Shown: one piece after another, positions 2,088-32,918 of the stretch
Layout of the letters: each line of letters starts with the position of its first letter
Numbering within the stretch: position 1 is the first letter of the stretch
Source of the DNA: a virus
Virus record (IMG/VR): IMGVR_UViG_3300019758_000019
Location: 1 to 32,918 of that record
Reading direction: 5' to 3' (one strand)
Length of the DNA: 32,918 nucleotides
The notes under the pieces: generated by a model
Database searches by the model: none
What the model was told of the DNA's origin: nothing
What the model saw: only the letters and a program-made list of their open reading frames with translations
Made by a program: the position numbers and the translations under genes

Positions 2088-2375
2088 ATGAATAAAGCAA
2101 ATGAAATAAACGGATTGTACTATAATCAAGCTGTATGCGTACCTATTGATTCAGAAGATGCAAAGTGTCATCCTGATTTAGGTGATGGTAGAAGGTCATA
2201 TAAAGACAATGATTACATGTTATTTAAACATGGTGAACAATGGTACTTTATACCCGAAGCCGATAAGCATGGTAACAACAGAACATTAGACAGATCATCA
2301 TACAAAAGGTTAGAAACTATATTCGGTGAAGATAATGTGATTCAAATTAAAGATTTACCGAAAACAGAAATTTAG
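2088..2375 (+). CDS. Hypothetical small protein, last gene before a terminator
   Basis: A 95-residue protein with GGAGG before ATG 2088. It is mixed in character, with Asp/Gly/Lys-rich loops (HPDLGDGRRSYKDND), aromatic strands (EQWYFIP) and a C-terminal basic-acidic segment. No family is recognised. It closes the decoration cassette: a terminator hairpin begins at its stop codon. It may be a further virion surface protein or a small assembly factor. Confidence 0.55.
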   Translation: MNKANEINGLYYNQAVCVPIDSEDAKCHPDLGDGRRSYKDNDYMLFKHGEQWYFIPEADKHGNNRTLDRSSYKRLETIFGEDNVIQIKDLPKTEI

Positions 2376-2394
2376 GGGGCTATTTGCCCCTTTT
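2375..2394 (+). terminator. Rho-independent terminator
   Basis: The stem GGGGC (2376-2380) pairs with GCCCC (2386-2390) around the loop TATTT, and is followed by TTTTCTTCTT. It directly follows the stop of the preceding gene. Confidence 0.8.
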
Positions 2395-2412
2395 CTTCTT
2401 ATTTGATATAAT
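2384..2412 (+). promoter_or_regulatory. Extended -10 promoter for the connector/tail operon
   Basis: TATAAT at 2407-2412 is preceded by TGA, giving an extended -10 (TGnTATAAT). Seventeen bases upstream is TTGCCC (2384-2389), a partial -35 that lies in the loop and right arm of the terminator. Transcription would start near 2419, just before the AAAGGAGG ribosome-binding site of the gene at 2432. Confidence 0.65.
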
Positions 2413-2431
2413 ACAAATGAAAGGAGGTCTT

Positions 2432-2872
2432 ATGTTAAGTTTAAAATTAGTTTTAGATACTTTAAGGAATAATTTTTCCGACAATAGAATTATACCTTTT
2501 CAGTGCTATAGTGATGCAGTAATTACAGATGGAAAGATAACAGCAAGCAATATAAATGAAGTTTTTCCTGTAAATTGCTATGTGAAAATTGAAGGAAGTG
2601 TCTTTAACAACAATTACTTCAAAATCACCGCTAATGGAACAGACTACATTGAAGCTGCTGAATTAGTTGCTGATCCAATCAACAAGATAACAGTTAAAGC
2701 ATGTTTTATCCCTGATGATGTTATTAATTTTGCATTAAATACAAACTTAGAAGATATTCCGACAAAGAAAAGTGAAAAAATAGGTAGTTATTCATATACA
2801 AACGACAGCACAGGCGTACAATCATTTATAAGAGATTCTTTAAACCCTTATTATCAGGGGGTGTTGATATGA
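2432..2872 (+). CDS. Head-tail connector (adaptor-like) protein
   Basis: A 146-residue protein. The start at ATG 2432 is chosen because AAAGGAGG lies 5 bases upstream; the longer open frame upstream overlaps the terminator and promoter. The N-terminus (LKLVLDTLRNNFSDNRIIPF) is helical and the middle is beta-rich. It is the first gene of the connector series and precedes the three minor-capsid families, which is where an adaptor or connector protein is expected in this type of phage. The family is inferred from position, not from clear motifs. Confidence 0.6.
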   Translation: MLSLKLVLDTLRNNFSDNRIIPFQCYSDAVITDGKITASNINEVFPVNCYVKIEGSVFNNNYFKITANGTDYIEAAELVADPINKITVKACFIPDDVINFALNTNLEDIPTKKSEKIGSYSYTNDSTGVQSFIRDSLNPYYQGVLI

Positions 2873-3201
2873 TAAGAATACCTAAAAGGTTGTTGATTCA
2901 CTCAGCTACTTTAAAAGTATATTCTAAAGATTGGACACAAGACAAAGAAACATCTGTTGATACTCTGTTAACCAATGTTAGATATGAAAGAGTAACAAAA
3001 CTTAATCAAACTAGCAAAACAAATAAAGATTTAGCTTTGAAAGCAACTTTATGGTATGACAGTTCTAACAGTTCCCCTAAAGGTGTAAATTTTGTTGAAG
3101 GTCAAATAATTGAGTTTGAGGGCGTTCCACATACAATAGAGGTTATAAATTATTATTATGATGATAAAGGCCTTGGTCATGAACAATTGGGGTTAGTGTA
3201 A
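2869..3201 (+). CDS. Minor capsid protein 1 family (head closure)
   Basis: A 110-residue protein overlapping the previous stop by four bases (ATGA). It begins RIPKRLLIHSATLKVYSKDW, typical of the Minor_capsid_1 family (PF10665). The C-terminal part (EGQIIEFEGVPHTIEVINYY) is the beta strand pattern seen in head-closure proteins. These proteins sit between the portal-adaptor and the tail terminator. Its place directly before the Minor_capsid_2 gene supports the call. Confidence 0.75.
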   Translation: MIRIPKRLLIHSATLKVYSKDWTQDKETSVDTLLTNVRYERVTKLNQTSKTNKDLALKATLWYDSSNSSPKGVNFVEGQIIEFEGVPHTIEVINYYYDDKGLGHEQLGLV

Positions 3202-3542
3202 TGCCTGTAACAGTAGAATTTAATAAGCAAGAAGTTAAAAAAAGGATATCTAAAGTTGTTGAAAAAGCACAGCCTAAACTTGCTAAATTAGCGCTTTCAG
3301 ATATTAACAAATATACAAAAGAAGATACAGGAAAATTAATAGCAGATGCACAAATAGACAGCGATTTTAATAATGGATTATTGATTTGGGATCAGGTCTA
3401 TGCAAGGTATCAATATTATTTACCAAACACATTAACAGTAATAAATCCGACAGCCAAGTTTATGTGGGCGCATTATGCAGACAAGAAACATGGTAAAGAG
3501 TGGAGGAAGTTCCTTCAAAAACAACTAGACAAGGGGGTGTAA
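3201..3542 (+). CDS. Minor capsid protein 2 family
   Basis: A 113-residue protein starting in the TAATG overlap with the previous gene. The pattern of a helical N-terminus, 'DTGKLIADAQ', 'YARYQYY' and 'PTAKFMWAHYA' matches the Minor_capsid_2 family (PF11114), which corresponds to HK97 gp10-like head-tail joining or tail-completion proteins. The order minor capsid 1-2-3 then major tail protein is conserved in many phages of Gram-positive hosts. Confidence 0.8.
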   Translation: MPVTVEFNKQEVKKRISKVVEKAQPKLAKLALSDINKYTKEDTGKLIADAQIDSDFNNGLLIWDQVYARYQYYLPNTLTVINPTAKFMWAHYADKKHGKEWRKFLQKQLDKGV

Positions 3543-3543
3543 C

Positions 3544-3924
3544 ATGTTAGATATTCTAACTTTGATAAAAGATACAATTGAAAACGGTGTTACATTAACC
3601 GAAAGCATAGAACTTGGGAAGCTAGGTACAGGTGAAAGTTTAGTTATGCAAGTTGCACCAAGTGGGACAGATGAAACTTTTCTTGATAAAAGCATATCTT
3701 ATGAATTAGATCTTTTATTTTTAAGAAAGTCAGAAGTTCAAACAACATGCATAAATGAATTAACGTCTATAGCTAACTTTTTAAGAAAATTAAAAACATA
3801 TCCTAATACACCTAATATAGAATGGGTTAATAGTTTCATAACTACTATGCCCAATTTTGTAGGACAAGAACAATCAGGAGAATGGATATATTCAATGGTA
3901 GTATCAAATAAATTAAGCTTATAG
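3544..3924 (+). CDS. Minor capsid protein 3 / tail terminator family
   Basis: A 126-residue protein following the previous stop by one base. It fits the Minor_capsid_3 family (PF12691), regarded as the tail terminator in related phages: an N-terminal helix (LDILTLIKDTIENG), a strand-turn-strand core, and a C-terminal strand with GEWIYSMVVSNKLSL. Its place immediately before the major tail protein fits capping of the tail tube. Confidence 0.7.
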   Translation: MLDILTLIKDTIENGVTLTESIELGKLGTGESLVMQVAPSGTDETFLDKSISYELDLLFLRKSEVQTTCINELTSIANFLRKLKTYPNTPNIEWVNSFITTMPNFVGQEQSGEWIYSMVVSNKLSL

Positions 3925-3935
3925 GAGGTTTAAAA

Positions 3936-4655
3936 ATGGATTATATGGCAGTATGGGGCGTTAACTTAGAAATGGATATTACACCAGGTGCGACACCTAC
4001 ATGGGTAGAAGTTGGCGCTGGATTCGACAATTTAACAGAAGCCTTAAATGAAGTAATTAACCAGTATCAATATCTAAACAAAAATGGTTTTGGTGAATCA
4101 GAAGTTACAGGTATGCAACCAATTTGGACACTAACAGGTGTTAGAAAAATGGCAGATGCAGCACAAAACTACATGTTTAGTAAGAAGTACAAGCTGTTAA
4201 ATGAAAGAAAAACAAACTTCAGAATTAATTATCTTGATGAAAATGATCAAATGATTAATGTATTATTTGAAAATGTCACAATTGCTAATATGCAAGAATT
4301 TGGTGGTGCTGCTACTGATGGCGCTGCAATCACAGTTGAAATTCATACAAGCGGTGAACCTGTAGTGACAGGAAATGAGCAAATTGAGTTATTATCTGTT
4401 GTTTCATTAGCTGGAACATCTGCTGGTGATACAGTTGTTTATGTTAACCCAACTATTGAAGGTGGAAACATTTACAAGATTCAAACATTATCAGAAGTAT
4501 CTATTCCTTCTTATGGCCAAGATATGACAGCATTAACAACCTGGAATGGTACAGATGAAATAACAGCAGCTACAGGTCAAGAGGTATTAGTTGTTGAATG
4601 TACAGCGGCATCATTAGCAAGAAAAGCTGGTAAAGCAACAGTAACAAGTGCTTAA
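3936..4655 (+). CDS. Major tail protein (tail tube)
   Basis: A 239-residue protein with AGGAGG before ATG 3936. The N-terminal ~145 residues look like a tube protein (WVEVGAGFDNLTEALNEV, GVRKMADAAQNYMF, then an acidic-aromatic strand region). The last ~90 residues, beginning near EQIELLSVVSLAG, are Thr/Val/Ala-rich and resemble an added Ig-like domain displayed on the tube surface. It lies between the tail terminator and the assembly chaperones, the standard place for this gene. Confidence 0.8.
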   Translation: MDYMAVWGVNLEMDITPGATPTWVEVGAGFDNLTEALNEVINQYQYLNKNGFGESEVTGMQPIWTLTGVRKMADAAQNYMFSKKYKLLNERKTNFRINYLDENDQMINVLFENVTIANMQEFGGAATDGAAITVEIHTSGEPVVTGNEQIELLSVVSLAGTSAGDTVVYVNPTIEGGNIYKIQTLSEVSIPSYGQDMTALTTWNGTDEITAATGQEVLVVECTAASLARKAGKATVTSA

Positions 4656-4690
4656 GTAAAAAACAAACTGTATAGAGAGAGTGAGGAACT

Positions 4691-5056
4691 ATGTATAAAA
4701 TAAGCAAGCCTGTTAAAATGGTTGAAAAAATAGAATTAGAAGATGGTGTGGTATTAGACGTAACTGTTAATGTTGGAAAAATAGCTGATAATTTCAATAG
4801 GATTTACAATGCTGTTCTAACCCAACAAAAACAAAAATCTGACAAACTAGGATCTAGTGTAATAGAAATGTTAGAACTTGTGTTAGGTGATAGCAACACA
4901 AAAACATTATTAGAATATTATGATGGTGATTGGTTGGAATTGATGTTAATAATTGTACCATTTATAGAATTAAAGTTTTTACCATTGGTAAAAGAGCATC
5001 AAAAGAAAAAACGTGAAGATGCCAAAATGATTTATAAGGCTTCTAAAAATGCTTAA
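4691..5056 (+). CDS. Tail assembly chaperone-like protein
   Basis: A 121-residue mostly helical protein with GTGAGGAA before ATG 4691. It follows the major tail protein and precedes the Gp15-family protein, which is the first position of the chaperone pair that coats the tape measure protein in siphophages. It contains a hydrophobic helix (WLELMLIIVPFIELKFLPLV) and a basic C-terminus. Its end overlaps the next start by eight bases in the +1 frame. I see no canonical -1 slippery heptamer at the overlap. Confidence 0.65.
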   Translation: MYKISKPVKMVEKIELEDGVVLDVTVNVGKIADNFNRIYNAVLTQQKQKSDKLGSSVIEMLELVLGDSNTKTLLEYYDGDWLELMLIIVPFIELKFLPLVKEHQKKKREDAKMIYKASKNA

Positions 5057-5644: not shown

Positions 5645-7886
5645 ATGGCAGATGGAAAAGTCACCTATGAAGTCAGGGCGGACGATTCAAAACTTTCATC
5701 CGATTTGGATAGTGCCAATAATAAGGTAAAAGGTTCATCTAGTAAATTCGCTGGTGCTGCTAAAACTGCAGCTGTAGGAATTACAGGAACACTTGTTGCC
5801 ACTGGTGTAGCTGCTGTCAAGTTTGGTACAGACTTTGAAACATCTATGACAAAAGCTTCAACACTCATGGAAGGCACAAATGTTGACATGGATGCTTTAG
5901 AAAAAAACATGTTAGCCTTATCAGATGCAACAGGCGTAGCAGCGACAGAATTAGGTGAAGGGCTTTATACAGCCTTAAGTGCTGGTGTTCCTGTTACTGA
6001 GGATATGGGCGAAGCTATGAAGTTTATGGAATCATCTACTAAACTTGCTAAAGCTGGATTCACCGATATTGACACAGCAATTAGTGCAACAGCTAAAACA
6101 TTAAATGCTTATGGCCTTGATGTTTCAGAAGCTGAAAGAATACAAGATTTGCTTGTACAAACACAAAATTTGGGTGAAATGTAACGCCCCTTATAAAAGA
6201 AATTTTATAAGCAAACTCCTTTAACTCAGGGAAAACTAAACTATCAAATGATAGCATGTCAATCCTGATCCAAGGGCATTAGGGATAATGTCAAGGTGCA
6301 ACGACTAGGCGAAGTAATCTAGAACAGATGAAACGCCCACGAATGGGGAGAACCTAAACAAGTAATGTTGTAGGTTGTGATATAGTCTGAACTTATTGGA
6401 AACTCTAAGAAGTATAGGATAAAGAGCCTTTACGATAACATAATTGATTACAACAGTAGACGAATTGGGAAGTGTTTTAGCTAATGTAACACCAACAGCC
6501 GCAGCAATGGGCGTATCATTTGAAGAAGTTTCAACAGCATTAGCGAACATGACCGCGCAAGGTACAGCAACAGGACAAGCAACAACACAATTAAATGGCC
6601 TGTTAGCAGAATTAGGAAAAGAAGGAACTAAAGCTTCAACAGCTTTATCAGAATCATTAGAAGGTACTGAACACGCTGGGAAGACATTCCAGGATTTAGT
6701 TGCAGAAGGCGTGCCATTAAATGAAATACTTGATATGTTAGGTAAACACGCTGAAGAAACTGGCGTAGGTATGCTTGATATGTTTGGTTCAATCGAAGCT
6801 GGTAAAGCAGCTTTAGCATTATCGGGAAAAAACTCTGAGAAGTACGCGCAAACATTGGACAAAATGAAAAATTCATCAGGATCTGTTGATAAAGCTTTCA
6901 AAACAGTTAGCAATACAACAAAAGAAAAGATGGATAAAATGATGAACCAATTAAAAAATACAATGATTAAATTATTTGATGTAGTCGAGCCAATTATAAC
7001 TATGGCGTTACCTATATTAATGGATCTATTCACGCAATTAGCTCCAGTTATACAACAGGTGTTTGAAAAGATTTCGCCACTAATAGAAAGAGCTTTACCA
7101 TTGTTTATGGGTTTAATAGAGTCGCTGCTGCCACCTTTGTTGATGTTGTTCGATGCCTTACTGCCTATAGTTGATATATTGATAGCTATATTAGAACCTG
7201 TTTTACAATTAGCCACCGCTATATTAGGGCCACTTATTGAAGCAATATCATTATTAATAAAATTGGCTTTGAAGCCTGTTATGCTGCAACTTAATATGTT
7301 TAAAAATGTATTTGGTTCAGTGTTAAATGGTATACAAGAACACGCAACAAGGATAATTGGAAACATAGTTAATATTTTTAAAAGTTTAATAGACTTTATA
7401 AAGAATGTTTTCACTGGAAATTGGAAGGGTGCATGGGGTAATATAAAAGATATATTCGCTAGTATATGGGATAGTCTAAAAGCTTCAGCAATATTTCCAC
7501 TTAACGCAATAATAAGTGCTGTTAATGGCGTGTTAAAAGGCCTTAACGGAATAAAAATTCCTGATTGGGTACCAGGTGTTGGCGGTAAAGGTTTTTCTAT
7601 AAAAACAATACCAAAAATTAAACTTGCTAAAGGCGGACTTGCATTTGGTGAAACTGATGCAACTGTAGGAGATAACCCAAATGCAAGACACGACCCTGAA
7701 GTTATTGCACCTTTAAGTAAATTGAAATCGGAACTTGGTTTAGATGGTTCAAATGTAAACAATAACAGCATGAATAACCAAAACATTGTATTCAACATCA
7801 CAGGAAATACCATAAGCGATGAAATGGATATTAACAATATTGGTGATATGCTTACAAGAAAGCTGCAGAATGAAGGTGTTCTATGA
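5645..7886 (+). CDS. Tape measure protein, split by a group I intron (exons 5645-6175 and 6447-7886)
   Basis: Joining the two exons gives a 656-residue protein. Exon 1 ends exactly at a codon boundary (TTG GGT) and exon 2 starts ATT ACA ACA, restoring the conserved block QNLG-ITTVDELGSVLANVTP of the phage minor tail / tape measure family (PF10145). Without splicing the frame ends two codons after the 5' splice site, at TAA 6182-6184. A long hydrophobic segment lies at about residues 350-455, and a Gly/Lys-rich C-terminal region ends in LARKLQNEG-like helices. At about 1.5 angstrom per residue the length suggests a tail near 100 nm (inference). The start at ATG 5645 has AAAGGGG upstream. Confidence 0.9.
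6176..6446 (+). ncRNA. Group I self-splicing intron in the tape measure gene, no internal ORF
   Basis: Intron of 271 nt. The 5' exon ends TTGGGT, the same end as the phage T4 td exon. The last exon U (6175) can pair with G6186 and the exon GGG with CCC 6187-6189, forming P1. Other pairings seen: P2 TTATAAAA/TTTTATAA (6191-6198/6203-6210), P4 TCAGG/CCTGA (6226-6230/6264-6268), P5 CTATC/GATAG (6241-6245/6250-6254), a P6-type hairpin GGCATT/AATGTC, and P7 GACTA/TAGTC (6303-6307/6383-6387) within GTGCAACGACTA and GATATAGTCTGAAC, the group I core signatures. The intron ends at G6446. There is no room for a homing endonuclease gene. Confidence 0.93.
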
Positions 7887-9574
7887 TAGTTAAAATTAAT
7901 AATATTGATATAACTAAAAAAGTAATAGCACCATCATTTAAGCTTATTAAAAGTTCAAATTATCAGCAAGAATTAACCTTTAATATAAGGGATGATTCAG
8001 ATTTTAGATCAGGCATGGAAATTATAGTCCTTGAAGATGATGGGTTAACTGTCATCTTTGGCGGACTTATCCAAGAACCTAAAAGAAACATGGCAACTAG
8101 TACAACAATAGTGCAATCAATAAAATCTGCTGGTTATAGACAAGTTCTTTCAAGACGTTCTTTTGATGTTGTTGTAGATAATGAAAAAGCTGGTGTTGTT
8201 ATAGAAAAGTATTTTGATGCTTTCTTATCTGTTGATAGCCCTATTGGTGAAGGTTTTATAAAGGGAGATATTGAAGAAGGTATAAATATCCCTAAGAAAG
8301 ACGATGTTTTTAGTGCTATGGATCTATTTAATGACCTTGCAACAGCTTCAGGCTTGTCTTGGTGGATAACTGACACCAAAGTATTTAACTTTAAAGCTAA
8401 GCCAACATACACCGATATAACAAGAAAATTAACAGATGATACCGATGAAATAGAAAGTCCTGTTATTGAAACTTTTGTTTCTTTGAATTATCCTGAATAT
8501 AAGGAGGATTTATCTAAGTATAGAAATAAACAATTTGTAATAGGTGTTAATTATGCTGGTGATCCTATAATTGGACAAGCTCAAAACGATGCCGAGATTG
8601 CTAGAATGTCAAGCTATTATGGTTCGGGTGTGTATGGTAACATAATAAAAAACAAAAACATTAGAAATATAAACGATGCTAATAACGCTGCATTAGCTGA
8701 ATTAGCCGCATATAGCGACATACCAGCCACTTTAACATTTACTACTACTAATCAAATAGATGTTAATCAAAGGCTTATAGTAGACTTATCAAAGCATGGT
8801 ATAGTTAATGAATACTATACTGTTGATAAAATATCAACAACTTTTGACAGAAGTTCTGCAATGTTGGTGAGAAATGTCGTTCTTAAAAAACATTATGATG
8901 TAGCTAAAGCGGTTAGAACTTGGACACAAGATTTTGACAAAGGTTTAAGAAAAAGGCAAGCTTCAGGCGATAGTGATAAAACATTGATATTCAACTCAGT
9001 TAAAAATGATACCACTGTTGTTGTTGGTCCAAGTTTTACACCTTTACCTGGTATAGACGTTGAATTTATTGAAAGTACAAAAGTGGCTTTTGATGTTCAA
9101 ATTAATGCAACCGCTTCAGAATCAACAAACGTAACTATCCAAGCAAGGATAGGCGGAGTTTCAAAAATGTTAACATACAAGCATTATGTGGGCGCTTATC
9201 TTGATCAAATTGTTTTTAATGGTTTGTTTGATACAATCGCTTCAACTACTGCTGTTGTAGATTTTGCAATTAAATGTGACTCAGGTACATTAACAATAAA
9301 TCCTGATGATTATAGAGCAAGATTTACTATTGAAGGCGGAGGGGCAGAAGAAGCACCACCAGCACCAGTTATAAATGTAAGTGAAATTGTTACAAGCTTC
9401 TTATTAGATGATTCGCAAGAAATAACAGTTTCAAATGTAACTGATAGTTTGGCTTTAACAACTCAAACACCTACAAACAACAACTTTAACGAAACTGTAA
9501 ACACTATCACGCTAGACAGTAATCAAATAACAATAACTTCTGTAAGCGATAGTGTAACAACTACAATAACTTAG
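7883..9574 (+). CDS. Baseplate hub / tail-associated protein
   Basis: A 563-residue protein overlapping the tape measure stop by four bases (ATGA). The N-terminal ~380 residues look like the gp27/Tal-type hub: short N-terminal strands (MIVKINNIDITKKV), GGLIQEPKR, a middle domain with SGLSWWITDTKVFNF, and a YYTVDKISTTFDRSSA segment near the end of the hub core, which is common in these proteins. The C-terminal ~180 residues are Thr/Val-rich and beta-like, possibly an added carbohydrate-binding or Ig-like part. I see no separate distal tail protein between tape measure and hub, which is unusual for SPP1-like tails. Confidence 0.7.
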   Translation: MIVKINNIDITKKVIAPSFKLIKSSNYQQELTFNIRDDSDFRSGMEIIVLEDDGLTVIFGGLIQEPKRNMATSTTIVQSIKSAGYRQVLSRRSFDVVVDNEKAGVVIEKYFDAFLSVDSPIGEGFIKGDIEEGINIPKKDDVFSAMDLFNDLATASGLSWWITDTKVFNFKAKPTYTDITRKLTDDTDEIESPVIETFVSLNYPEYKEDLSKYRNKQFVIGVNYAGDPIIGQAQNDAEIARMSSYYGSGVYGNIIKNKNIRNINDANNAALAELAAYSDIPATLTFTTTNQIDVNQRLIVDLSKHGIVNEYYTVDKISTTFDRSSAMLVRNVVLKKHYDVAKAVRTWTQDFDKGLRKRQASGDSDKTLIFNSVKNDTTVVVGPSFTPLPGIDVEFIESTKVAFDVQINATASESTNVTIQARIGGVSKMLTYKHYVGAYLDQIVFNGLFDTIASTTAVVDFAIKCDSGTLTINPDDYRARFTIEGGGAEEAPPAPVINVSEIVTSFLLDDSQEITVSNVTDSLALTTQTPTNNNFNETVNTITLDSNQITITSVSDSVTTTIT

Positions 9575-9580
9575 GGGGTA

Positions 9581-10945
9581 ATGATGAAGGGTAAAACACT
9601 CATACAATTATTTAACGCTGAAACAGGCGAAGAAGAAGCAAGATTAGAAGATAACAACATAGTAACTGATTACATGAAAGATTTTTTAAATAAAAGGGTT
9701 AGCGCGTTTAATTCTAATTTAAATGCTGGGTTAGATGGAGATAACAATAATACACTTTATAGATTAAATGGAAAAATAGAAACATTTTTCAGAGGTTTGG
9801 TATTGTTTGGCGATACTTTAACCGCTGGTGTAGGCAATTACAACCTTGATTTTGTACCTGAAGTGATTGGGTATGCTGCTGGTGATTATTCGGGTGCTGA
9901 TTCTTACAGAGGTGACTATAACGCTGCAGAATCGGGGAAAGTAGGAAATGTATGGACACAAGTGTGGGATTTTGGAACAGATAAAGCAAACGGAATAATA
10001 AGAACAGCTTGCTTGACAGACGAAATAGGCGCAACAAGTGCATATGGCACAGAAGAAGGTTATCAAGACTTGTATGAATATCCTTTTAATACTCCATTCA
10101 CATCAGGTATTAGTTCGAGTTTGTCTGTTATTAAGCCAACCTCATTTAACCAATTTGTAAACACTATAATAGGAAAAATAACCACAGGTGGGAAAGATTA
10201 CTTGTATTATACAAATGCATCAACAGTATATAGATTTGAATTGGATTTAGATGGATATGAAATAACTCCTATAGATTATGAAGCTGAAGTAGCTGAAATA
10301 GTTGGATCAGTTCCGCTAACATCACCATACAATTATCAAAGTATGTTTTCTTATGCTGGTGTAATGTACATATTAGAATATAATTCTAGTACAGCGGATT
10401 GTTTGCTTTCTGTAGTTGACCCTGTAACACTTGCAAAAAGTGGTTCTGTATCTATAAATGTTACAAAATACCCTAATTTCTCTTATAATAAGTTTGCTTG
10501 CATTATAAATGGTGAACTTTGGATGCTTAGCCAAGCTGGAGACGCAGAACTTACTAGCTACAGCATAACAACAGGGTTAGAAACTGGATCTTTTGATATT
10601 TCTTATATGCCAACACATCCAAACAACTTAAATAAAGTGACAGATAAAATATTAATGGTAAGTGACAGAAGTTATTTAAGTGGCCAATACAATTGTAGGA
10701 CATATAAATTTGATGGTACGAGAATATCATTACCAACAAGAAATAAATACTATACAGCCCAAGCTAGGGACATTGTGGTGTATGATTATGATGATATATT
10801 GTCATTTGTTCAAACTTCAGAAAGCGGCGATTATATGAATATTGGTTTAAAATTAGGATTATTAACAACTATCAATGTGTTACCTTCACCAGTAACCAAA
10901 TTAAACACTCAGACAATGAAAGTAACCTATACATTGACTTACTAA
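9581..10945 (+). CDS. Tail tip / receptor-binding candidate protein
   Basis: A 454-residue protein with TTAGGGGG before tandem ATGs at 9581 and 9584. The N-terminus (KTLIQLFNAETGEEEARLED) is the kind of short adaptor found at the start of baseplate proteins. The remainder is Tyr/Ser/Thr-rich with repeated blade-like units such as DYLYYTNASTVYRFELD, GVMYILEYNSST and GELWMLSQAGD, which suggests a beta-propeller. It is the last structural gene before the lysis genes, the usual place of a receptor-binding protein. The function is inferred. Confidence 0.6.
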   Translation: MMKGKTLIQLFNAETGEEEARLEDNNIVTDYMKDFLNKRVSAFNSNLNAGLDGDNNNTLYRLNGKIETFFRGLVLFGDTLTAGVGNYNLDFVPEVIGYAAGDYSGADSYRGDYNAAESGKVGNVWTQVWDFGTDKANGIIRTACLTDEIGATSAYGTEEGYQDLYEYPFNTPFTSGISSSLSVIKPTSFNQFVNTIIGKITTGGKDYLYYTNASTVYRFELDLDGYEITPIDYEAEVAEIVGSVPLTSPYNYQSMFSYAGVMYILEYNSSTADCLLSVVDPVTLAKSGSVSINVTKYPNFSYNKFACIINGELWMLSQAGDAELTSYSITTGLETGSFDISYMPTHPNNLNKVTDKILMVSDRSYLSGQYNCRTYKFDGTRISLPTRNKYYTAQARDIVVYDYDDILSFVQTSESGDYMNIGLKLGLLTTINVLPSPVTKLNTQTMKVTYTLTY

Positions 10946-17815: not shown

Positions 17816-17963
17816 TACTTGCAAACATCAATTATTTATAAATGAAGAATATTTTATGGATTTAGTTTGTTCAGAAGGTCATTGGAATGGCGGAAAAGTT
17901 TCAGAAGAGTATAAAAATAATAATCCTGATCCTTGGGTTGATTGTGATAATTATGAAGAATAA
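17796..17963 (+). CDS. Small zinc-ribbon-like protein
   Basis: A 55-residue protein with AAAGGGGTGG before ATG 17796. It begins MAKWKCDTCKHQLF, a C-X2-C knuckle, and has further Cys/His residues at CSEGHW and WVDCDN, so a single zinc site is possible. It overlaps both neighbours in other frames, which is normal for this compact operon. Confidence 0.65.
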   Translation: MAKWKCDTCKHQLFINEEYFMDLVCSEGHWNGGKVSEEYKNNNPDPWVDCDNYEE

Positions 17964-18393
17964 AAATCAATGGAATGGATATTACACTGGCAAAGACCTT
18001 GAGGACAGAATGATTAAACAACTTTCTGCTGAAGGGTTTGAGCCTGTAAAGGATAAAACTTTATCAGATGGTAAACGTAGGGTTAAAGACATTAAAGCTG
18101 ATATACTCGTAAATACTGGCCATAAGCTTGAATGTAAAAGCACTACTGAGAAAACTAACCTTACTTTTGAAGTGTGCCACAGTGGTAAAAATGTTAATAT
18201 TAAATTCCACCAAATAGTGGCAGCTGATTATTTTGTATTTGAATTTAGGCCTAATCCGATATACATTGTTAAGAAAAGAGACTTCTTGTATTGGTGGGCC
18301 GATTTAAAGCGTTCTAAGCTATCTATAATGTGGAAAGATGTTGAAGAGATAGGTTTTAAGTTAGATACATTTGATTTTTTAAAGGAGGATTAA
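17953..18393 (+). CDS. PD-(D/E)XK nuclease, possible Holliday junction resolvase
   Basis: A 146-residue protein. ATG 17953 is preferred because the open frame further upstream only shadows the zinc-ribbon gene. After an N-terminal helix (DLEDRMIKQLSAEGFEPV) come IKADILV (acidic D) and HKLECKST (E-x-K), the spacing of a PD-(D/E)XK active site, and a later conserved-looking WWADLKRSK helix. Small nucleases of this kind in phage recombination operons often act as resolvases or ssDNA/branch nucleases. Substrate unknown. Confidence 0.65.
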   Translation: MKNKNQWNGYYTGKDLEDRMIKQLSAEGFEPVKDKTLSDGKRRVKDIKADILVNTGHKLECKSTTEKTNLTFEVCHSGKNVNIKFHQIVAADYFVFEFRPNPIYIVKKRDFLYWWADLKRSKLSIMWKDVEEIGFKLDTFDFLKED

Positions 18394-31495: not shown

Positions 31496-31702
31496 ATGAA
31501 TCAATCAACAGTGTTAAGAAAAGATGGTAGTTTTGATACGTTCACTACTGATGAAGGATTACCAAAAGCATTAGAACATAAGGCAATAGCATTAAACGTA
31601 AATACAAACGAATGGTATATATACCACCAAAGAAATTATAATCCAAAAGCAACAACAGGCACAACAGTTTACAATCCTGATAACTGGTTTTCATTAGCAT
31701 AA
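31496..31702 (+). CDS. Small hypothetical virion-region protein
   Basis: A 68-residue protein with AGGAGGATAAC before ATG 31496. It is beta-rich with many aromatics (LNVNTNEWYIYHQRNY, VYNPDNWFSLA), as in short carbohydrate-binding or adaptor modules. No family is recognised. It stands between the capsid terminator and the LamG-like fibre gene, so it may belong to the decoration cassette. Confidence 0.55.
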   Translation: MNQSTVLRKDGSFDTFTTDEGLPKALEHKAIALNVNTNEWYIYHQRNYNPKATTGTTVYNPDNWFSLA

Positions 31703-31715
31703 AAAGGGGGTTAAC

Positions 31716-32321
31716 ATGGGATTCAAAAACACAGGCTTTCCAATGCCTACCTTTAACCCTTTGGGTTTCAGAACAAGTGGAAGCCTATTAAAACAACTTG
31801 TCAAATGCGGACTAAAAGTATACAACACTCCCGAAGATGACAAGTTAAACAAGGGCGACAGAGAACCACAGTTAAGCCAAACTATAATAGGTGATGGTGC
31901 TACTTATTCCAATATTGGAATTATACCTAATAGCACTACAAAAATAAAAAAGTTAAGAGGTAATTTCACTACTCCAAATGGTAACTTTGAAATACCTATA
32001 GGCGCTAGAACTGTATCAAATAGATTTTTAATCGCAAGAGATAACCCACTAGGTAGAATAGTATTTGGGTACGGGGATGCACAAGTTACAACAAGTGTTA
32101 TAGCAGATTTACAAGTACACGAATATTCTACAGATGGTGCAAAATTGTATTATGATGGTAATGAAATAGCAGATTTAACAGGCGAAACAATAACAAGCAT
32201 AACAGACTATTTATTCTTAACTGCTTTAAATTTTGGTGGACCATCAAATATATCTAATTTCAATGTAATAGAATTAGAAATAGACCACAATGGCGAAACC
32301 TACACCCTAGACACCACATAA
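31716..32321 (+). CDS. LamG-like fibre/decoration protein, N-terminal part up to an in-frame TAA
   Basis: A 201-residue protein with AAAAGGGGGT before ATG 31716. After an N-terminal region (MGFKNTGFPMPTFNPLGFRT) comes a concanavalin/LamG-like beta-sandwich: GNFTTPNGNFEIPIGARTVS, RIVFGYGDAQ, AKLYYDGNEIADL, NFGGPSNISNFNVIELEID. The frame stops at TAA 32319-32321, yet remains open for 199 more codons to the window edge and continues into recognisable fibre sequence. Either the protein ends here, the stop is read through, or a CAA codon has mutated to TAA. Confidence 0.7.
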   Translation: MGFKNTGFPMPTFNPLGFRTSGSLLKQLVKCGLKVYNTPEDDKLNKGDREPQLSQTIIGDGATYSNIGIIPNSTTKIKKLRGNFTTPNGNFEIPIGARTVSNRFLIARDNPLGRIVFGYGDAQVTTSVIADLQVHEYSTDGAKLYYDGNEIADLTGETITSITDYLFLTALNFGGPSNISNFNVIELEIDHNGETYTLDTT

Positions 32322-32918
32322 AGAGACACCAACGGTGTATGGGTACTAAAAAAACCTAGTGGTAATATTCAAGTACAACAGTTCCTTTCACCACCAATAC
32401 CAACAGAAGATAACTTGCTAGTTGAAAGTGACTATGACAAGTATGGGGGTAGTGTTAGTAAGGCGTTGGGCAAGAACAAAATGGATTTATCAAAATTAGA
32501 AAATGGTCAAATAGATTCAGATGGCACTCCTAGCGGTAGTTCTACTAGGGTTAGAGATTCAGAGTTTATAATAATTGAAAATATAAATACACATAACTTT
32601 AAATCTTTTGTTCAAGTTGGCGGTAAAAATTTAAAATTGGTAGCAATGCACTATTACTTAAAAGACGAAACATTTATAAGTAGAGATATATTGCAATCGT
32701 CTGACACCAACTTCAATCCGCCACAATCAACATATTGGATAAAAGGCTCATATGCATACACTGATGATTCTGCTATAGATGTATCTGAATTAACATTAGC
32801 TGAATTACAAATAGAAGAAGGCATGACACCAACCGCCTACGAACCATACAACGGTTACACCTATGATGCCCTAGGCACTTTACCTGTACCACAGGGTACA
32901 CTAATGTCAGCTAACGCA
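32322..32918 (+). CDS. Fibre protein continuation behind the in-frame TAA (cut by right edge)
   Basis: These 199 codons lie in the same frame as the LamG-like gene and show no stop. There is no start codon with a ribosome-binding site near the beginning (the first ATG in frame, near 32480, has none), so independent translation is unlikely. The sequence starts RDTNGVWVLKKPSGNIQVQQ, contains a second beta module (NFKSFVQVGGKNLKLVAMHY), and ends in the IEEGMTPTAYEPYNGYTYD module also found near the left edge. Confidence 0.6.
32808..32918 (+). repeat. Right copy of 111-bp fibre-module repeat
   Basis: Aligned to 203-313 with four mismatches; the last 83 bases, up to the window end, are identical to 231-313. 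The identity may continue past the edge. Both copies code for the same fibre module in frame. Confidence 0.95.

Follow-up and report, generated by a model that had tools for sequence, protein, structure and literature searches.

A compact and probably self-splicing group I intron interrupts the tape measure gene of an IMG/VR phage

Introduction

Group I introns are already established in phage tape measure genes. In ICP1, a phage of Vibrio cholerae, the tape measure gene is described as frequently interrupted and carries three introns, with splicing documented by RNA-seq and RT-PCR (PMC10448857). For the Lactobacillus delbrueckii phage JCL1032, the title of Riipinen and Alatossava (2004) refers to two self-splicing introns located in late genes, and a passage of a paper citing that work calls JCL1032 the only Lactobacillus phage with proven group I introns at its date; the tape measure CDS of this phage (EU409559, ORF17) is annotated as two joined pieces. 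The minor tail gene of BAKA, one of the Cluster J mycobacteriophages, contains a 265 nt, endonuclease-free intron whose splicing was verified by RT-PCR (PMC3706429).

Here we examine a 32,918-base IMG/VR virus record, analysed at its full length (the window). The original prediction had called an ORF-less group I intron in its tape measure gene and considered this location less common, which undersells the known cases, namely JCL1032, the three introns of ICP1 and several of the IMG/VR loci described below. The window intron shares with that of JCL1032 the interrupted gene, a short length (322 nt in JCL1032, by our splice assignment), a match to the Rfam group I model RF00028 (59.4 bits in JCL1032), a conserved 3′ domain and an in-register P10, but the JCL1032 intron is inserted some 39 codons further downstream, at the position of window residue 216/217, and follows GGGAU with a GUCCC guide. 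The likeness to ICP1, taken from the published description rather than from sequences, consists in the presence of introns in the tape measure gene; ICP1 differs in having three of them, in its exchangeable HNH endonuclease genes and in its host. As in BAKA, the intron occupies a tail gene, lacks an endonuclease gene and has a U at the exon end and a G at the intron end, whereas the BAKA intron interrupts a minor tail gene and its host is actinobacterial. The best coverage in phage records came from the DNA helicase intron of Staphylococcus Silviavirus (e.g. PV017447), which matched 82% of a query made of the intron and short flanks at 68.9% identity and differs from the window intron in its host gene.

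Results

The window derives from a small phage, probably of a low-GC Gram-positive host, with its tail module at about 3-11 kb. Within this module, the plus-strand gene at 5645-7886 is frame-interrupted: reading from exon 1 reaches a stop at 6182-6184, and the ORF list gives the remainder as open from 6444. Left unspliced, the product would read ...QNLG-E-M-stop and end after 179 residues, two codons into the intron, as originally predicted. Both exons were recognised as ORFs and cover abutting parts of PF10145, with exon 1 (5645-6175, plus strand, 177 codons, ending TTGGGT at the top-ranked splice choice) matching profile positions 2-89 and exon 2 (6447-7886, plus strand, 479 codons and a stop) matching positions 91-186. 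Spliced, they form an ORF of 656 codons plus a stop, and the joined protein scores 112.2 bits against PF10145 (profile 2-186), versus 52.4 and 51.4 bits for the separate halves. The PF10145 core, the tail-gene setting and homology to the tape measure of Clostridioides phage CD1801 identify the product as a TP901-type tape measure protein (TP901 / PhageMin_Tail). Elsewhere in the record, a 111-base repeat is present at 203-313 and 32808-32918 with 96.4% identity; the end of the record lies within the second of these, so a repeated piece of tail-gene sequence is probably where the contig broke. The adjacent ORFs at 1143-1610 and 1620-2078 start near-identically (MYNSNLTG / MYNSNRTG) and are perhaps a small duplication.

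The covariance search that the original prediction had proposed as a check returned RF00028 at 6166-6409 with 69.1 bits (E 9.6e-16), exceeding the gathering score of 50 by 19 bits and spanning the full model (1-253); this is the sole Rfam RNA in the whole record. Together with frame restoration, the match delimits a 271 nt group I intron at 6176-6446 on the plus strand, without an ORF and with a terminal G6446. Splice sites were assigned by a scan that did not presuppose 6175|6447, in which each U close to the exon 1 boundary that could support a 4-bp P1 was tried with each G just downstream of the conserved UAACA, and the products were translated and scored with an HMM profile of 88 tape measure cores. 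The pair 6175|6447 came first at 443.4 bits, an absolute score flattered by the inclusion of the window's own spliced protein in the profile, and the runner-up (413.7 bits) fell 30 bits behind; both the homologues and PF10145 bear out the ranking. With 6176-6446 excised, QNLG continues into ITTV in the same reading frame, and the predicted junction and 656-residue product both stand. The exon end TTGGGT had also been read correctly, and we take its likeness to that of T4 td as an assumption.

The helices P1, P2, P4, P5, P6-like and P7 named at the outset are all present on the plus strand, and P3, P7.1/P7.2, P8, P9, P9.1 and P10 can be drawn in addition. P1 (6172-6189) pairs the exon end GGGU (6172-6175) with GCCC (6186-6189), placing a U6175·G6186 wobble at the 5′ splice site, and its loop contains the UAA (6182-6184) at which translation of the unspliced message would stop. 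P2 (6190-6211) is a 9-bp hairpin with a GAAA loop, and P3 (6216-6350) pairs core CUCC (6216-6219) with GGAG (6347-6350). The 6 bp of P4 (6226-6268; 6226-6231 with 6263-6268) enclose P5 and P5a (6241-6254), and P6a (6275-6292) is a 7-bp hairpin with a GGGA loop. The guanosine-binding helix P7 (6303-6387) is a 5-bp pseudoknot between GACUA (6303-6307) and UAGUC (6383-6387), strands that fall in the conserved GACUA and GAUAUAGUC blocks of the Rfam match. P7.1 and P7.2 (6308-6337; GGCG/CGCC and AUCU/AGAU), seen in the centroid fold, lie between P7 and P3 and place the intron in subgroup IA. Further downstream are the P8 hairpin (6352-6375; ACCUA/UAGGU, inner AACA/UGUU), P9 (6392-6409; GGAAAC loop, two non-standard pairs inside) and, outside the Rfam match, the P9.1 hairpin (6412-6433; GUAUAGG/CCUUUAC, one non-standard pair), which is followed by the conserved GAUAACA. 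In P10 (6180-6452), UGUAA (6180-6184) pairs in register with exon-2 UUACA (6448-6452), leaving position +1 unpaired; five of six in-register pairs form, with a chance expectation of about 3% (inferred from a pairing rate of 6/16), and we regard this register as corroborative, short of deciding.

Across 24 phage introns from different genes, P9.1 shows both-sided changes at 7 of 7 pairs, with 92.1% of cells paired; none of 500 shuffles reached the real value, and slid versions of the helix were also far below it. Folding of the whole strand compared with shuffled sequences gave a moderate z of -1.80 by a method blind to the P7 pseudoknot, and minimum-energy folding by itself is weak evidence. 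In all, the P3-P8 core, the P7 pseudoknot, the U·G pair in P1, the terminal G with P10 and the exact restoration of the gene are those of a group I intron. Such an element could belong to group I by descent and have lost its activity, leaving the phage with an N-terminal fragment cut short at 179 residues and perhaps with a C-terminal one initiated separately at TTG 6444, which the ORF list gives as a start; the three non-standard pairs in P9 and P9.1, which could reduce activity, are in keeping with this. We consider such a loss very improbable, because P1, P7, P10, the terminal G and the blocks of the catalytic core are all preserved, exon 2 is stop-free over 479 codons, and the break would hit an essential tail protein in its best-conserved motif.

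The original prediction had also suggested a search for the intron-free allele, and 86 of 86 homologous loci inspected are uninterrupted at the junction, mostly reading TQN[LK]G-[IK]TTV. Homologues in IMG/VR (the best 80 of 359 candidates) were retrieved by exon-2 peptides or profile only, a procedure without bias against introns. The closest tape measure homologue in phage records, that of CD1801, is likewise uninterrupted; it aligns to residues 24-354 (331 codons) in 993 bases with no net length change and reads AATAAAGGT-ATCACTACA at the insertion site. Of the 319 twelve-residue stretches in the 88-sequence alignment, the best conserved is TQNLGITTVDEL (TQNLG^ITTVDEL), and the claim that the intron sits in the most conserved block of the gene is literally correct. 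A search of IMG/VR with the full spliced protein confirmed no close relative, and of 16 IMG/VR pattern matches sought as other introns abutting the same exon-2 start, none had tape-measure core similarity. The window's insertion site was found occupied in none of the other loci searched.

Relatives of the intron were collected with a pattern from its 3′ domain, which is widespread and yielded 36 IMG/VR loci; their second exons, judged by inspection rather than family search, are varied (head or capsid-like, ribonucleotide-reductase-like, ATPase-like). At five of these loci (L092, L103, L110, L113 and L115) the intron interrupts the tape measure core as detected by HMM, and at L099, a less certain case, it lies upstream of a tape-measure reading frame and has a tape-measure-like exon start, giving about 6 of 36 loci of this intron subtype in a tape-measure-like gene. 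The L110 and L113 introns are about 1.38 kb long, with room for a possible endonuclease gene. An exact pattern of the intron 3′ core had no match in IMG/VR, and matches in plasmid records were weak, partial and confined to lactobacilli. In named phage records, the closest 3′ domain (3′ 88 nt, 92% identical) belongs to an intron in the portal gene of CD1801 (L003 2421-3094; MW512570.1), 674 nt long, whose removal joins NASG to VALKFFYRKL. Like the window intron, it follows GGGT and forms P1 with GCCC, whereas it occupies another gene, carries about 400 nt of additional sequence and has a P10 of its own, in which six of six loop positions pair with an exon 2 unlike that of the window. Rfam at E 0.01 missed this intron, perhaps because of the additional sequence, and its identification was based on sequence similarity and on the logic of the splice sites. 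Within the additional sequence, a reading frame of 34 residues matched no Pfam family. In the CD1801 record the portal pieces are annotated as separate genes and the intron is unannotated, with a 'hypothetical protein' whose annotated start coincides exactly with the splice site.

The distribution of these relatives bears on the suggestion, made in the original prediction, that late tail assembly could be controlled through the efficiency of splicing, an overreach that is unsupported here. A regulatory switch selected as such would suit a late structural host gene, and the UAA in the P1 loop would bring ribosomes on exon 1 near the splice site; ribosome-splice site coupling is known for td. 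This explanation is likewise very improbable, since the relatives inspected keep no intron at this site, relatives of the intron are scattered over many unrelated genes, and the anatomy is passenger-like and suggests no ligand or protein signal.

As predicted, the intron contains no homing endonuclease gene: there is no plus-strand ORF of at least 60 aa within 6176-6446, and the element does not carry the intron-encoded endonuclease gene by which mobile (homing) group I introns are recognised. Homing endonuclease families were also absent among the roughly 40 other ORFs scanned, with several tail and head-tail ORFs (2-1153, 2088-4797, 7883-10945 and 31496-32918) outside the scan. A 168-aa ORF at 17887-18393, flanked by exonuclease-like and NA37-like genes, matched neither Pfam nor PHROG; on visual inspection it is possibly a PD-(D/E)XK nuclease, which leaves room for a trans-acting endonuclease.

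Discussion

We are highly confident that a subgroup IA self-splicing group I intron interrupts the TP901-type tape measure gene of this phage. The original call is borne out by the covariance model, by a reading frame restored exactly, by homologues without an interruption, by P1 and P10 pairing in register and by the covariation of P9.1, and from the sequence, its structural elements, the frame and the empty sites of relatives we infer that the intron splices and that it does so autocatalytically. Guanosine attack followed by exon ligation is established group I chemistry. In the tail-gene transcript, the GGGU at the end of exon 1 would pair with the internal guide GCCC, and exogenous guanosine bound in P7 would attack after U6175; the freed exon 1 would then attack after G6446 while P10 holds exon 2, and the ligated message would encode the 656-residue protein. 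An assembly chimera or a non-intron insertion is hardly credible, because, although the element is known from a single record and pattern searches of IMG/VR found no second copy, its exon-specific P1 and in-register P10 suit both flanks and its removal is exact to the base.

The intron is most likely a selfish passenger that was horizontally acquired and is retained because imprecise loss would wreck an essential block of residues. Without an endonuclease gene, its present mobility would be limited to co-conversion with flanking DNA, to the action of a trans-supplied endonuclease or, in rare cases, to reverse splicing at a different GGGU.

Mapped on the window protein, the insertion sites lie after residue 177 (window), 185 (L110 and L113), 216 (JCL1032) and 219 (L103 and L092); at residue 219, L103 is in phase 0 and L092 in phase 1. 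The L115 contig ends just beyond its splice site and resembles L092, so its intron probably also lies at residue 219. All tape-measure introns mapped have GGGU paired with GCCC as P1, except that of JCL1032; the scan required a P1, but not the GGGU/GCCC sequence. With at least four positions within 43 codons, the TP901 tape measure core might be a recurrent landing zone for one GGGU-recognising group I subtype, a tentative reading that we hold to be rather unlikely. On this reading, the several neighbouring sites, together with the CD1801 portal site after GGGT, would suggest repeated, independent guide-directed entry (e.g. reverse splicing) as opposed to fixed-site homing. That distinct sites cluster in a single domain is the aspect worth following.

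For annotation, the locus at 5645-7886 is one where a standard gene caller would break an essential tail gene in two. The window intron provides a clean, compact, endonuclease-free case with a defined empty site, and the tape-measure loci together make it testable how endonuclease-free introns reach neighbouring sites in one gene.
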